Source: a virus
Direction: 5' to 3' (one strand)
Virus record (IMG/VR): IMGVR_UViG_3300021356_000024
Coordinates: 1 to 52,672 of that record
Length of the DNA stretch: 52,672 nucleotides
Below are positions 40,251-45,839 of the stretch, in pieces. Under the pieces are notes generated by a model. The model did not search any database. It was not told the origin of the DNA and saw only the letters and a list, made by a program, of their open reading frames with translations. The translations under genes and the position numbers were made by a program. Numbering within the stretch: the first letter of the stretch is position 1; each line of letters opens with the position of its first letter.

Positions 40251-40505
40251 TACTTCAAATCTACCGCCGATAGTCAATTCAACCTTGTCAACACCCGTCA
40301 TTTGATAGTATAGAAATTCTGTGTCACAGGAATATAACCATTCACTTTTTACTGGACTATCTACGACTACTTTTCTTTCTTTTGCCCAACATGTAACAAT
40401 TGGATGAGGAGACAATATCGTTTCTTCTCTAGGCACCACACTAATTATTTTCTTTTCAAAATCCACAGCAAGCATCACATATACTAATACTGTGTAAACT
40501 CCCAT
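40248..40505 (-). CDS. Small protein downstream of tape measure, 85 aa
   Basis: 85 residues starting with a hydrophobic strand (MGVYTVLVYVMLAVDF), then beta-rich with two Cys. The ATG overlaps the tape-measure stop by one base, so it is the last gene of the minus-strand tail operon. Probably a small tail or baseplate assembly protein; no family recognised. Confidence 0.6.
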   Translation of the reverse strand: MGVYTVLVYVMLAVDFEKKIISVVPREETILSPHPIVTCWAKERKVVVDSPVKSEWLYSCDTEFLYYQMTGVDKVELTIGGRFEV

Positions 40506-43500
40506 TAGGTTGATCCTGTACTGAAGAATTTATCTTTTGCTTTGTAACTTGGTCTTGCTGATCCAGCAAATCCTCTTTCATTTTGGCCTGTACTTCCTGG
40601 AGTTTCACCGCCTCTGGCCGCAGGAGAACCCGTTCGTTTTGTTCTTGGGTTGAACGGCAACATCATAGGAATAATTTTTGTTGTAGCAGCCTTTATATTC
40701 GAAATCGTAGGATTCTTCACTGCTTGTTGAATTCTTCCCGCTTGAGACATTGCAGTGCGAATCTTGTTACCCGTTTCACCAGAAGGCAAATTTCTCCTGA
40801 CAGATGTTTCTATATTGCCAAGTGTTGGATTTTCAATGACACGTGCAACGTCTCGCATCTTTGAGATGTTACCCGCTTGACCAGGTCCCGCAACTTTTCT
40901 TAAAATTCTTTCTGCGGCGCCGACTGAAGGATTCTTGATTGCATTCGCAACACTCTCAGCTTCACGCATTACCTGTCTTGCGTTACCGACACCGGGAATT
41001 GCCAACTCTCGGCCTGCTTCACCGACAAGATACTTGCCTGCGTTTTTAATGAAACCACCAAACTCTCTGCGGCCGTCAAGCAACGTCTTGGTCGTATCGG
41101 CAGGTATGATCACACCGTCTTGAGCGGGAACCATCAACTCAGGTCCTTCTTCACCCACAAGATAGTCGCTGCCGTCTTCTACAGGTCCGCCTTTGGCTCT
41201 TGTCTGCATTACAGTGGTTAGACCACCACCAAACATCTTTTGACCGGTTGTTCCCTTAAATGAGTCTGCATTACCGTACTCACGTATTCTCAACCTTTGT
41301 TCGCGGTTACCGCGAATTTGCGTGGCGCTAATGTTATCAACCGCAACTCTTCCTTTCGGTGAAATTTTTTGATAATAATTACCCTCATCACCATTCAGTG
41401 ATAAGTCACCTTTTCCAGGGTATCCATTCTTGATAATCCAACCACTGGGCATTCCTGGTATTTGTTTGCCTTCTCCTATTTCTGAGAATGTTGCCCATTC
41501 ATCAGGACCACCAAACTGAATCATTTCTGGTCCGGCGCCACTGCCTGTCCAGTTGCCAGCAATAATTCTTTCGGCATCGAACTGAATTCTTCCGCGATCT
41601 TCACCCGCGGCTGCACGTGCTCTCAACGATTCTTTTCTTTGTGTTTTGATTGCATTATGATCAGCAGAGTAAGCACGTTTGATTGCAAGTATCTTATCTG
41701 CGTATCCTTCGGGCCTGAATGCTTCTACGCCTTGTTCGCCTGTCAGATACACCTGACCTTCTTCAACAGGACCACCTTCTGCTCTGGCTTCAATGCCTGA
41801 AAGATATTTTTTTATTTCCTCAGTCAGTAGATAACCGTTAACATTTCCTTCAAAATTTCTTGGAAGCAAATTTCTGTCTTGGAGAAATTCGACTTTTTCA
41901 ATTGTATCGCTGGGCAAAGCTCTAGAGAAATCAATGTTTGTGCTGGCTTTTGCGGATCGTAATTCTTTGTGTTTCGCATCTTCATCGGCATCATCATACA
42001 CTTTTTCTTCATCGAATCCCATGTCGTCCATGACCATTTTAAATGTGCCACGTTCTTCACTGTTAACCCAAGACGTATAGGCCTGTTTTGCTTCTTGCGC
42101 TTTGATCTGCAACTTTCTTAACGATTGATCGACTTGATTGATTTGTCGTCCAGGTTTTTGACCGTCAATGGCTCGCACATCTTTCGTCGGTTTAAGACCT
42201 TCTATTTCACGGCCGCGTTTCGTCGGTGTAGGACCTTCTATCTTACTGACATCTTTCGTCGGTGTAGGACCTTCTATCTTACTGACATCTTTCGTCGGTG
42301 TAAGACCTTCTATTTCACGTCCACGCTTGCCTTCTGTTTTGGGTGTTGCGCCTTCTGCCTGAGGGAAAGGATCTGGATTACCCATCGCAGCGGCTGCTGA
42401 TCTTGCTGCATTAATTTTTTGTAATTCTTTCTCTGAGAAGTCTGTGCGAGTTTCGCCATTAACTTCTACATCTACGCCACCAACTTTTTTCGTAAACGTC
42501 TGTTCTTCACGGCGTTGACGATCAGTTGGTCGACCATCGATTGCACGAACATTTTTCGTCGGTTTAAGACCTTCTATTTCACGGCCGTATTTTGTTGACT
42601 TGACTGCTTCTTTGGCTTCTTTGGCCGCTTCTCTAAACTTGTCGGCATCTTGCATGTTGTTGGTTAACAGATCCGCAAATTCTTTATATTCACCTTCACT
42701 TAATTCGCTTTTAGCCGTTGCAATCAAACCGGCGCCGGCCGTTCGAATCATTTCGTCATCTACGGACTTGTATTGTGCATACGTGGTAATATTTTCTGCG
42801 ACATAGTACAAAGCATTTTCGTCTGTACCAATACCTTGTGTTGCTTGCACTGCGATTTCCGAGAGTGTCGCATCTTCACCGTACTCTGCCTTAATCTCAG
42901 GTACAGTAGCGACTCTATCGATCAGAACATCTGGTGTGACAAGATCAATGAAGAATTGTTTTGCAGCGTCAATTGCTCTGTCTGCCAGTTTTCCGAATGC
43001 ATCACGATCACCCATGCCGAAATCATAGAATGCGTTTATAATATGTTCGATGCCTAAAAGATCATACACCGCAGGACCCAAAATGATACCAATCAGAAGA
43101 CCGGCAAGGCCGCCTGCAATGTTACCTAAAACTGGAAATACAGAACCTGCAACAGTCAAGATGAAAGTCATCAAGTAAGGAGCACCAAGTCCTCTTGCGA
43201 GTCGATTTAGTTGTGCCTTGTTACTCTCATGAAACTCTGCTACGGACATGAGACCAAGTGTGAATCGATCTAACACCTTTAACATGAAGGTGATGGCTTC
43301 TGCAATCAGATACCATTTTAGTACGCTCTTGGCACCGCTTGATATTTTTTCAACTACTGACGCGGGAAGTTTGGCAGCAAGCGCATTGATTTTTGCCGCC
43401 ATAGAATCAGATGCTTTAGCGATAGCATCAAAGATACCCTTCATTTTCATGAGGCCAGCACGCCACTTATTTGCAGTTGCAAGTGTGTTACCGGCCGCAG

Positions 43501-44404
43501 GTAAGGCCGCTTGTACTGTAGTTGCTACTTTAGTACCTGTTGAGACCGCTGATGTAAGTGCGGGTACTGCGGAAGGAGTGGCTACTTTTACGGTGCCTTG
43601 TGCAACCGCACCCATCTTATTCATAAACTGTGCTGATTGAGCAACCTTTGTTGACGCACCGGCGGCCATACCGGCGGATGCAGCAATACCTCTAGTTGCT
43701 GCTTCAAAGGTCGTGTCCATGACAGGAATTGCATATTCTACGAAGGTGGCAATTTCGTCACCAAAACCCATAACAAGCCCAGCGACACTGCCGGTAATTG
43801 CATAACCTACTGCTTTAGCAATTTTCGCAAATAAAGATTCCGCTTTGTCTTTGGTGTCATGATACGCTTGTTTCGCATCTTTCAGGTATGAGAAAGCGTT
43901 TTTATTCTCAACGTCATCCTCGTCCTCTTTTCTTTTTCGACGAAGATTTTCTTTTCTGTCGTCTTCAGTCTTTTTCTTGACTGCTTCGGTTAACTTAGCA
44001 ATTATTTTGTTTTGAGTGTCGACCGAAGATTCTAACGAAGCGACTCGCTGAATGATTAGATTGAGATGTTCTGCGTAAAGACCTTCATTAGGTCCTTCTT
44101 TTGGTATGATTTTTTCTTCATCGACACTAACTTTGCCGACAGCAGGAAGTCCTGTGACAGGAACATATCCCGGTCCTGCGGCTGCGCCGCCGCTGCCTGC
44201 GCCGCCTGATCCTGATCCGCCTGAGTTACCCGAGACATCATCACCACCCATCATAAAATCTGCAGCTGCTCCGAATATTGCGCCACTGCCGCCAGTTTTA
44301 GCTATTCTCTTTAGAAAACCGTCTTTCGCGGATTTTCCAGTAGAACCAGCAACATCTTTAGCTTTCTTTGCAGTTTTGCCTAATCTAGCAAGTATTGGTA
44401 ACAT
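40505..44404 (-). CDS. Tail tape-measure protein
   Basis: 1299 residues, the largest gene in the window. Typical tape-measure content: long coiled coil and charged helices, hydrophobic segments able to cross a membrane (about residues 200-225 and 408-445), and YLVGEEGPELMVPAQ (about 1085-1099) plus related YLTGEQGVEAFRP and YLVGEAGRELAIP copies, a signature of phage tape measures. A 12-residue tandem repeat lies at about 690-745. It is preceded directly by a tail-assembly chaperone with a -1 frameshift signal, the usual order. T4 gp29 is about half this length, so the tail may be longer, if length scales. Confidence 0.87.
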   Translation of the reverse strand: MLPILARLGKTAKKAKDVAGSTGKSAKDGFLKRIAKTGGSGAIFGAAADFMMGGDDVSGNSGGSGSGGAGSGGAAAGPGYVPVTGLPAVGKVSVDEEKIIPKEGPNEGLYAEHLNLIIQRVASLESSVDTQNKIIAKLTEAVKKKTEDDRKENLRRKRKEDEDDVENKNAFSYLKDAKQAYHDTKDKAESLFAKIAKAVGYAITGSVAGLVMGFGDEIATFVEYAIPVMDTTFEAATRGIAASAGMAAGASTKVAQSAQFMNKMGAVAQGTVKVATPSAVPALTSAVSTGTKVATTVQAALPAAGNTLATANKWRAGLMKMKGIFDAIAKASDSMAAKINALAAKLPASVVEKISSGAKSVLKWYLIAEAITFMLKVLDRFTLGLMSVAEFHESNKAQLNRLARGLGAPYLMTFILTVAGSVFPVLGNIAGGLAGLLIGIILGPAVYDLLGIEHIINAFYDFGMGDRDAFGKLADRAIDAAKQFFIDLVTPDVLIDRVATVPEIKAEYGEDATLSEIAVQATQGIGTDENALYYVAENITTYAQYKSVDDEMIRTAGAGLIATAKSELSEGEYKEFADLLTNNMQDADKFREAAKEAKEAVKSTKYGREIEGLKPTKNVRAIDGRPTDRQRREEQTFTKKVGGVDVEVNGETRTDFSEKELQKINAARSAAAAMGNPDPFPQAEGATPKTEGKRGREIEGLTPTKDVSKIEGPTPTKDVSKIEGPTPTKRGREIEGLKPTKDVRAIDGQKPGRQINQVDQSLRKLQIKAQEAKQAYTSWVNSEERGTFKMVMDDMGFDEEKVYDDADEDAKHKELRSAKASTNIDFSRALPSDTIEKVEFLQDRNLLPRNFEGNVNGYLLTEEIKKYLSGIEARAEGGPVEEGQVYLTGEQGVEAFRPEGYADKILAIKRAYSADHNAIKTQRKESLRARAAAGEDRGRIQFDAERIIAGNWTGSGAGPEMIQFGGPDEWATFSEIGEGKQIPGMPSGWIIKNGYPGKGDLSLNGDEGNYYQKISPKGRVAVDNISATQIRGNREQRLRIREYGNADSFKGTTGQKMFGGGLTTVMQTRAKGGPVEDGSDYLVGEEGPELMVPAQDGVIIPADTTKTLLDGRREFGGFIKNAGKYLVGEAGRELAIPGVGNARQVMREAESVANAIKNPSVGAAERILRKVAGPGQAGNISKMRDVARVIENPTLGNIETSVRRNLPSGETGNKIRTAMSQAGRIQQAVKNPTISNIKAATTKIIPMMLPFNPRTKRTGSPAARGGETPGSTGQNERGFAGSARPSYKAKDKFFSTGST
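42182..42319 (-). repeat. 36-bp tandem repeats in tape measure
   Basis: About four 36-bp units (42182-42217, 42218-42253, 42254-42289, partial from 42290), the middle two identical. They encode a 12-residue unit of the type EGPTPTKDVSKI. A further copy of the unit is at about 42554-42588. Confidence 0.9.
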
Positions 44405-44410
44405 ATTTTC

Positions 44411-44602
44411 CTACCAAGGTATATTGTCTTGTGGTGTTGATGCCTCTTTCGCTTTTTCATTCATCATGTTTATGTAAACGTCTCTTTCAAACGGTATCAT
44501 GTTTTCAATCTCCGTCAGCGAGAAGTCTGCACTTTGTGACATATCGAACATTGTCTGATACATCGTAATCAAATTTGTGTAACTCAGGCTAATGCGAAAA
44601 AA
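44411..44602 (-). CDS. -1 frame extension of the tail-assembly chaperone (frameshift product)
   Basis: After the slippery TTTTTTC at 44602-44596, the -1 frame stays open for 61 codons to a TAG at 44411, overlapping the chaperone stop. It contains FSLTEIENMIPFERDVYINMM, a pattern I associate with the T-part of tail chaperones. Shifted ribosomes would make a 294-residue fusion (233 shared residues plus 61). An ATG at 44563 could also start a separate 50-residue protein. The tape-measure ATG follows 6 bp later behind AGGAAAAT. Confidence 0.75.
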   Translation of the reverse strand, partial: FFRISLSYTNLITMYQTMFDMSQSADFSLTEIENMIPFERDVYINMMNEKAKEASTPQDNIPW

Positions 44603-45294
44603 TCTTCTAATTGTCTAAAAACCACTTTCTTCTCTGTTCCCTCAGAATTGGTGTAGTTGACTACATGTTCAATTCTAGGAATTGCTTCAAAGAAACTTTC
44701 GATTTTCTTATATGTGTCGAGAGGAAGATTATCAATGAATTCTTCCTTTTCTTTCTCAGAAACTTCTTTCCAAGAATAAACGTCTTCCTCATCATACACT
44801 GTGTCAATGCAGTGTTTGATCGTTTCGAAACCAATCTCAGTGACCGTTTCAAGGTTGGCCAACCTCTCAGCGATTGTGGGATTCGGCCAACTTAAAGTCA
44901 GACCCATGTTATCACCGAATGTAACGGTGTTATTGACCTCTTCTGGGTATGTGACTTCAACTTCATTGAGATCGACCTCAAGATCATAGAGAATGCCGTC
45001 ATTACTATCTTGAACCTGAAACTTAACGATGTTGTCAATAGAAACCGCACGTAGTTTCAGAAAAATATATTCAAGATCAAATAATGTTGCATCGTCAACA
45101 CTGAAATCGGGATTGATCACACAGTTGTTTACAATCTGCTTCACAGCTTGAAACATATCTTTGCGTTCACCCGACTCTCTAGCCATCATGAGAATCTTTT
45201 CTTCCTTCACAACAAAAGGACGATAATTCAAAGTCTTTTTATTCGAAGGTTGTGTCAACTCAAACGATGCGGTTTGAATCTTAGGTAATGCCAT
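44584..45294 (-). CDS. 26: Tail-assembly chaperone / baseplate protein (T4 gp26-like)
   Basis: 236 residues starting MALPKIQTASFELTQPS, with KEEKILMMARES (about 29-40) and LFDLEYIFLKLRA (about 68-80), matching the T4 gp26 / T4_baseplate family. The place directly before the tape measure and the slippery DFF codons near its end suggest the lambda gpG role: coating the tape measure while the tube polymerises. An AGGTGAAAAATT site precedes the ATG. Confidence 0.82.
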   Translation of the reverse strand: MALPKIQTASFELTQPSNKKTLNYRPFVVKEEKILMMARESGERKDMFQAVKQIVNNCVINPDFSVDDATLFDLEYIFLKLRAVSIDNIVKFQVQDSNDGILYDLEVDLNEVEVTYPEEVNNTVTFGDNMGLTLSWPNPTIAERLANLETVTEIGFETIKHCIDTVYDEEDVYSWKEVSEKEKEEFIDNLPLDTYKKIESFFEAIPRIEHVVNYTNSEGTEKKVVFRQLEDFFALA

Positions 45295-45311: not shown

Positions 45312-45839
45312 TTAACTTACTTTCCAATCAGTATATTTGTATGATACTGCCAATTTTAATGTGTCATCTGAAGAACCCCATGACATCTGCATTTGATCTA
45401 CAGACAATGGGAATGCTTCGTTAAGTGTAATGGTCTTTTTCAGTGCGCCAGTGTTGTGGTCGTACATTTGAATTATTAAAGGTCGAGCATACTCTTCAAG
45501 ATAATATGCAGTGTATTGCTTATCGCCTTTGTAATCTACAACTTTATTGGCCCACTCGTAGAAATCTTGATAGACGCTGTAATCGGCGTCCAGTGTATGC
45601 ACCATTGAAACTTCTTGTGGGTTGAATGCATAAGGAAGTGTGTACATTCTTCCGTTGCCGTATGGTTTGTAATTGTCAACACTCATCCATGCGGCACCGG
45701 GTGCTGATATCGATTCTGTTCTCAGACTAATTTCTCGACCACTGCCGGCTGCGGGTGTTACAATACAGTCGTAACTGTGTGCGCGAGCAAAACCTTTACT
45801 CGCAACCTGTGATTTAAATTGTGATACATCGAATGGCAT
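45312..45839 (-). CDS. Tail tube-type protein (T4 gp19 family)
   Basis: 175 residues. The beta-barrel pattern, IVTPAAGSG, then SAPGAAW (about 47-53), and the end FPLSVDQMQMSWGSSDDTLK with a final strand of Tyr/Lys/Tyr/Trp fits the gp19-like tube fold. It may be the main tube or a tube-initiator paralogue; in T4 the tube gene lies next to the sheath, which is not in this window. Its ATG overlaps the previous stop. Confidence 0.72.
   Translation of the reverse strand: MPFDVSQFKSQVASKGFARAHSYDCIVTPAAGSGREISLRTESISAPGAAWMSVDNYKPYGNGRMYTLPYAFNPQEVSMVHTLDADYSVYQDFYEWANKVVDYKGDKQYTAYYLEEYARPLIIQMYDHNTGALKKTITLNEAFPLSVDQMQMSWGSSDDTLKLAVSYKYTDWKVS

Follow-up and report, generated by a model that had tools for sequence, protein, structure and literature searches.

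The window analyzed here is a 52,672-nucleotide stretch of viral DNA (IMG/VR record IMGVR_UViG_3300021356_000024). On its minus strand, a gene at 44584..45294 encodes a 236-residue protein of the gp26 family (T4_baseplate), a predicted short tail assembly chaperone. The protein matches PF12322 with 183.3 bits against a cut-off of 24.5 (E = 6.6e-54) and phrog_150 with E = 5e-58, which agrees with the gp26 assignment made in the initial annotation. Upstream on the same strand lies a gene for a gp19-like tail tube protein (45312..45839; phrog_45, E = 1.7e-18). Downstream, also on the minus strand, a 1299-residue protein encoded at 40505..44404 is the likely tape measure, judged from its position and from weak PHROG tape-measure matches (best E = 8e-5). 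A tRNA scan found none, and an Rfam search returned no match.

The minus-strand 3′ end of the gp26-type gene reads GAA GAT TTT TTC GCA TTA GCC TGA. It contains the slippery heptamer T TTT TTC (44602-44596) in X XXY YYZ phase, as the initial annotation had described, and the 0-frame TGA (44586-44584) follows 9 nt past the heptamer rather than the 12 bases given there. After a −1 slip, the frame continues as CGC ATT AGC CTG AGT... and runs without a stop through 61 codons until a TAG at 44413-44411, which is 6 nt upstream of the tape-measure ATG (44404). The predicted fusion thus comprises 233 + 61 = 294 residues. The open frame, its position directly before the tape measure and the size of the fusion had all been proposed from the sequence, and each was borne out by the coordinates.

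The 61-codon tail (44411..44596, minus strand) is homologous to the C-terminus of gp51. A 53-residue open reading frame within it (44411-44572) matches phrog_634, annotated as a baseplate hub assembly catalyst, with E = 3e-15. The tail also matches columns 250-281 of phrog_150; this family therefore includes proteins that carry both parts in one chain. By these homologies, the −1 frame is a genuine coding sequence.

AlphaFold2 models of gp26 and gp51 were both confident, with mean pLDDT values of 92.8 and 89.8, respectively. The top PDB match of the gp26 model in Foldseek was the HK97 tail assembly chaperone (Protein Data Bank 2ob9), a non-significant hit (E = 0.59, probability 0.20-0.28), and any likeness of the modeled fold to known chaperones is only suggestive. 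Foldseek returned no match for the gp51 model, and a sequence search of the PDB with the gp26 profile gave nothing relevant. A match to phrog_4336, annotated as a tail assembly chaperone, was obtained with E = 0.0014 for the window's protein alone among 59 members.

Conservation of the slippery site and the tail

The heptamer by itself is no evidence for frameshifting, because TTTTTTY is common in the window (53 occurrences, with 66 expected from shuffling); the case is carried by conservation. All 80 viral contigs retrieved with the window's gp26 have TTTTTTC or TTTTTTT in phase together with a −1 tail, at least two of these tails being cut by a contig end. The window's two closest loci (L001 and L002) do not differ from it over 892 nt and come from the same phage, and no independent close relative was seen. 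We then considered a wider set of 187 gp26-type open reading frames in 191 loci. An in-frame T TTT TTY followed by a −1 tail was present in 174 of the 174 loci with one intact gene, where the tail is complete in 169 and cut by contig ends in 5, and where "intact" leaves out IME-SM1 and VP-1, single-gene loci that lack the heptamer. Carriers of the site include cyanophages, rhizobial, Caulobacter, Stenotrophomonas and methylotroph phages, Aeromonas phage 65 and the Vibrio schizo-T4 phages. The initial annotation had proposed a comparison of TTTTTTC and the −1 frame in related phages as a check, and no locus with one intact gene has lost TTTTTTY or the frame.

For a less redundant view, 50 representatives with less than 70% amino acid identity were drawn from the 174 loci. 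Their heptamer is TTTTTTC in 38 and TTTTTTT in 12, and the preceding codon ends in T in all 50. The tail has a median dN/dS of 0.16 across 165 pairs of relatives, as expected of a sequence under purifying selection. By these comparisons, the joint conservation of heptamer and tail in the 174 loci is far beyond chance.

The remaining 13 gp26-type open reading frames belong to the two-gene phages, to VP-1 (two copies of one sequence) and to IME-SM1. In the Stenotrophomonas phage IME-SM1 (locus L088, around 2238-2260), the run has five T instead of six, so that gp26 is annotated with a shifted end. Because its relative Bhz51 (L101) has the full site, the missing T is probably a homopolymer sequencing error. 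In the Ackermannviridae Vibrio phage VP-1 (L092, 2200-2417), the gp26-like gene ends GTT TTT CGC TAATG, and from its TTT onward the −1 tail seems to keep register in the alignment, suggesting either a GTTTTT-type site like the one reported in Vandenendeviridae or reinitiation at the ATG.

The two-gene phages without the heptamer are T4, Aeromonas phage 31, Krischvirus, Proteus phage P4-3 and the RB43 group. T4 gp26 and gp51 each match PF12322 along almost its full length (9e-64 and 4e-52), and by this comparison they are paralogues; gp51 consists of the short domain and then continues into the tail. T4 makes the same two protein forms, with the same tail on the long one, but from two separate genes without a slippery site. 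Genes 26 and 51 are divergent neighbors in T4 and its allies, whereas in RB43 (L095, 2001-3294; also L187-L191) they stand in tandem in the same direction, with the long gp51 first and the short gp26 second. Aligned by eye, gp51 of the T4 and RB43 types has the tail fused in frame at the point that the slippery site occupies in the other phages; the junction in the latter, aligned in the same way to T4 gp51, reads ...D-F-F-R-I-A-L-S-H-D-S-L-E-N-Y-Y-S-T-N-F.... In one further locus (L200, 2482-3255), a T4-type gp51 appears to be split into two overlapping open reading frames, perhaps through a sequencing error or because the gene is mutated.

In a tree of 63 proteins, one branch (99/97) sets the frameshift group apart and another (100/100) the long forms, in a topology whose root is not fixed and which has several long branches. 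As each group keeps to its own side of a branch, one change of layout suffices.

Predicted stimulatory elements around the heptamer

We looked for stimulators against a null in which the protein was kept and synonymous codons were resampled. In the 21 nt before the heptamer, binding to the anti-Shine-Dalgarno sequence was above expectation in the relatives (mean z −1.04, Stouffer Z −7.4), whereas control blocks gave a mean z of 0.03. The signal peaks at 8-mers starting 14-16 nt upstream, and a Shine-Dalgarno-like element is present in most relatives. Downstream structure was likewise above expectation, with z of −1.74 over codons 3-28 compared with −0.45 for the control, and the probability of opening a base pair jumps at +7 nt (0.87 versus 0.56 under the null).

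The window itself has no clear counterpart of either element. Its predicted Shine-Dalgarno-like binding is −2.2 kcal/mol, compared with −1.7 expected and a mean of −6.2 in the relatives, and its open-pair probability at +7 is below the null, with no clear stem. The efficiency of frameshifting in the window is therefore uncertain. Its signal may be simpler and perhaps weaker than that of the relatives, or its stimulator may be of an unrecognized type.

The partner of the stem differs by lineage. Local hairpins are predicted in S-PM2 (13 bp), P-HM2 and IC12, and the main marine clade is predicted to form a long-range helix in which the codons of ALSHD pair with those of PWERE, the tail's two most conserved motifs. 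In this helix, 8.36 of 11 pairs form against 7.08 expected (Stouffer 6.7) under an expected-codon null that does not keep dinucleotides; registers slid by whole codons gave −0.1 to 0.4. One pair of third codon positions covaries (U-A in 15 sequences, C-G in 12), with p = 0.0002 in a 24-sequence subset, from shuffles that ignore kinship. Because the sequences whose folds pointed to the helix overlap with those tested, these tests do not give independent evidence for it. An RNAalifold consensus over the mixed set gave no common structure, probably because the lineages use different stems. We regard the ALSHD-PWERE helix as likely and go no further than that, given the non-independent tests, the lack of a consensus from RNAalifold and the z of up to 0.4 in control slides.

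On balance, we lean towards a model in which the T4-like chaperone frameshift is driven by the conserved T TTT TTY together with an internal Shine-Dalgarno-like element some 10 nt before it and a stem that opens about 7 nt after it and is built differently in different lineages. In the marine clade, the stem would be the ALSHD-PWERE helix, so that the coding sequence of the long form would control its own synthesis.

Proposed ribosomal frameshifting and alternative routes to the tail

Site, reading frame, homology and conservation together support the G/GT-type −1 control that the initial annotation had proposed for this T4-like tail, and the gene very probably makes both a short and a −1 frameshifted long tail assembly chaperone. 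Most ribosomes would stop at the TGA and release the 236-residue gp26-type protein. A minority would slip back by one nucleotide on T TTT TTC, with tRNA-Phe re-pairing in both sites, and would read 61 more codons to give the 294-residue gp26-gp51 fusion. By analogy with lambda gpG and gpGT, both forms would then act on the tape-measure protein and the tail tube during tail assembly. We infer the slippage on the ribosome, its rate and the chaperone role. For two protein products, T4 and RB43 lend indirect support, as they encode the short and the long form in separate genes.

A different reading, and the one found in database annotations, makes the gp51 tail a separate small protein that is started independently or by coupled reinitiation where the frames overlap. 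S-PM2, Cr30 and other phages do have gp51 annotated as a separate open reading frame, often at an ATG near the gp26 stop, and the window offers a TTG (44572) and an ATG 8 and 11 codons into the tail. However, conservation of the tail begins within its first few codons, and a separate start would lose this conserved beginning. Among the 50 representatives, 39 lack an ATG in the first nine tail codons, and 26 lack any of ATG, GTG and TTG in the first 14. The annotated gp51 is accordingly shortened, to about 30 residues in P-HM2 (L087), 47 in Melnitz (L086) and 39 in phi-Grn1 (L091), as expected when annotators must find a start codon. A separate start also accounts neither for the heptamer nor for the in-frame fusion in gp51 of T4 and RB43, and we consider it very unlikely.

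The same −1 product would arise if RNA polymerase slipped on the T run, so that a minority of transcripts carried an extra U. The site is indeed a run of T, with seven T in 12 of the 50 representatives, but the other 38 have only six, which is short for polymerase slippage. Moreover, the run never departs from T TTT TTY phase, and the relatives add the Shine-Dalgarno-like element and the stem at +7, which are stimulators of a ribosomal event. Transcript slippage therefore seems very improbable as the source of the tail.

That the heptamer merely reflects a Phe-Phe C-terminus in a T-rich genome, with the tail unrelated or decayed, fits the frequency of TTTTTTY in the window but is refuted by conservation: the site is found in 50 of 50 representatives and T TTT TTY in only 14 of 207 (6.8%) other Phe-Phe pairs of the same loci (TTT TTY in 27%), and the tail belongs to a known family with the low dN/dS given above.

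Relation to known frameshifts

The frameshifting favored here for the window parallels the lambda G/GT system in yielding a short form and a −1-extended form, in lying just upstream of the tape measure and in placing the heptamer close to where the short frame ends. The lambda heptamer is G GGA AAG, unlike T TTT TTC. The stimulators predicted in the relatives resemble those of Escherichia coli dnaX, where an internal Shine-Dalgarno-like element lies about 10 nt before the heptamer (A AAA AAG) and a stem follows it; the window differs in having no clear example of either.

A 2010 review of T4 described gp51 as essential and of unknown function (PMC3004832), and a 2016 review made T4 the exception ("except T4") to the conservation of G-T type frameshifting across long-tailed phages (PMC5009743). 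More recent papers credit Vladimirov, Gautam and Davidson (2022, Virology 566:9-15) with identifying the tail chaperones of T4-like phages (PMC10885494, PMC12846349). One of them attributes to that work the poly-T slippery sites in the TAC-N genes of T4-like phages (PMC12846349), and the other reports from it that some T4-like phages have instead a short gene and a separate long gene in fused form (PMC10885494). We had considered frameshifting as new to T4-like phages, an idea that we rejected, as the 2022 study, according to the papers that cite it, already describes it.

The TAC-N/TAC-NC pair of those accounts would be the same gene family as gp26/gp51, and it shares the poly-T slippery site. 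The window's gene lies directly upstream of the tape measure (itself assigned by position and weak PHROG matches), with a slippery site shortly before the short frame ends and a conserved extension, as such a pair should. Our finding is a further instance of the published arrangement. In the literature, where the 2022 study was covered through the papers citing it, we found no report of the stimulators, and these alone may be unreported.

The window thus adds one more phage in which T4-type tails appear to obey the general rule of making two tail chaperones, one short and one long. The same rule extends to T4, the exception of the 2016 review, as its genes 26 and 51 look like split equivalents of the two forms. 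Our results also bear on annotation. Many phage records, including those of P-HM2, Melnitz and phi-Grn1, treat gp51 as a gene of its own, in some cases with its beginning cut off, and our comparison suggests that it is more likely to be the frameshift extension of gp26.
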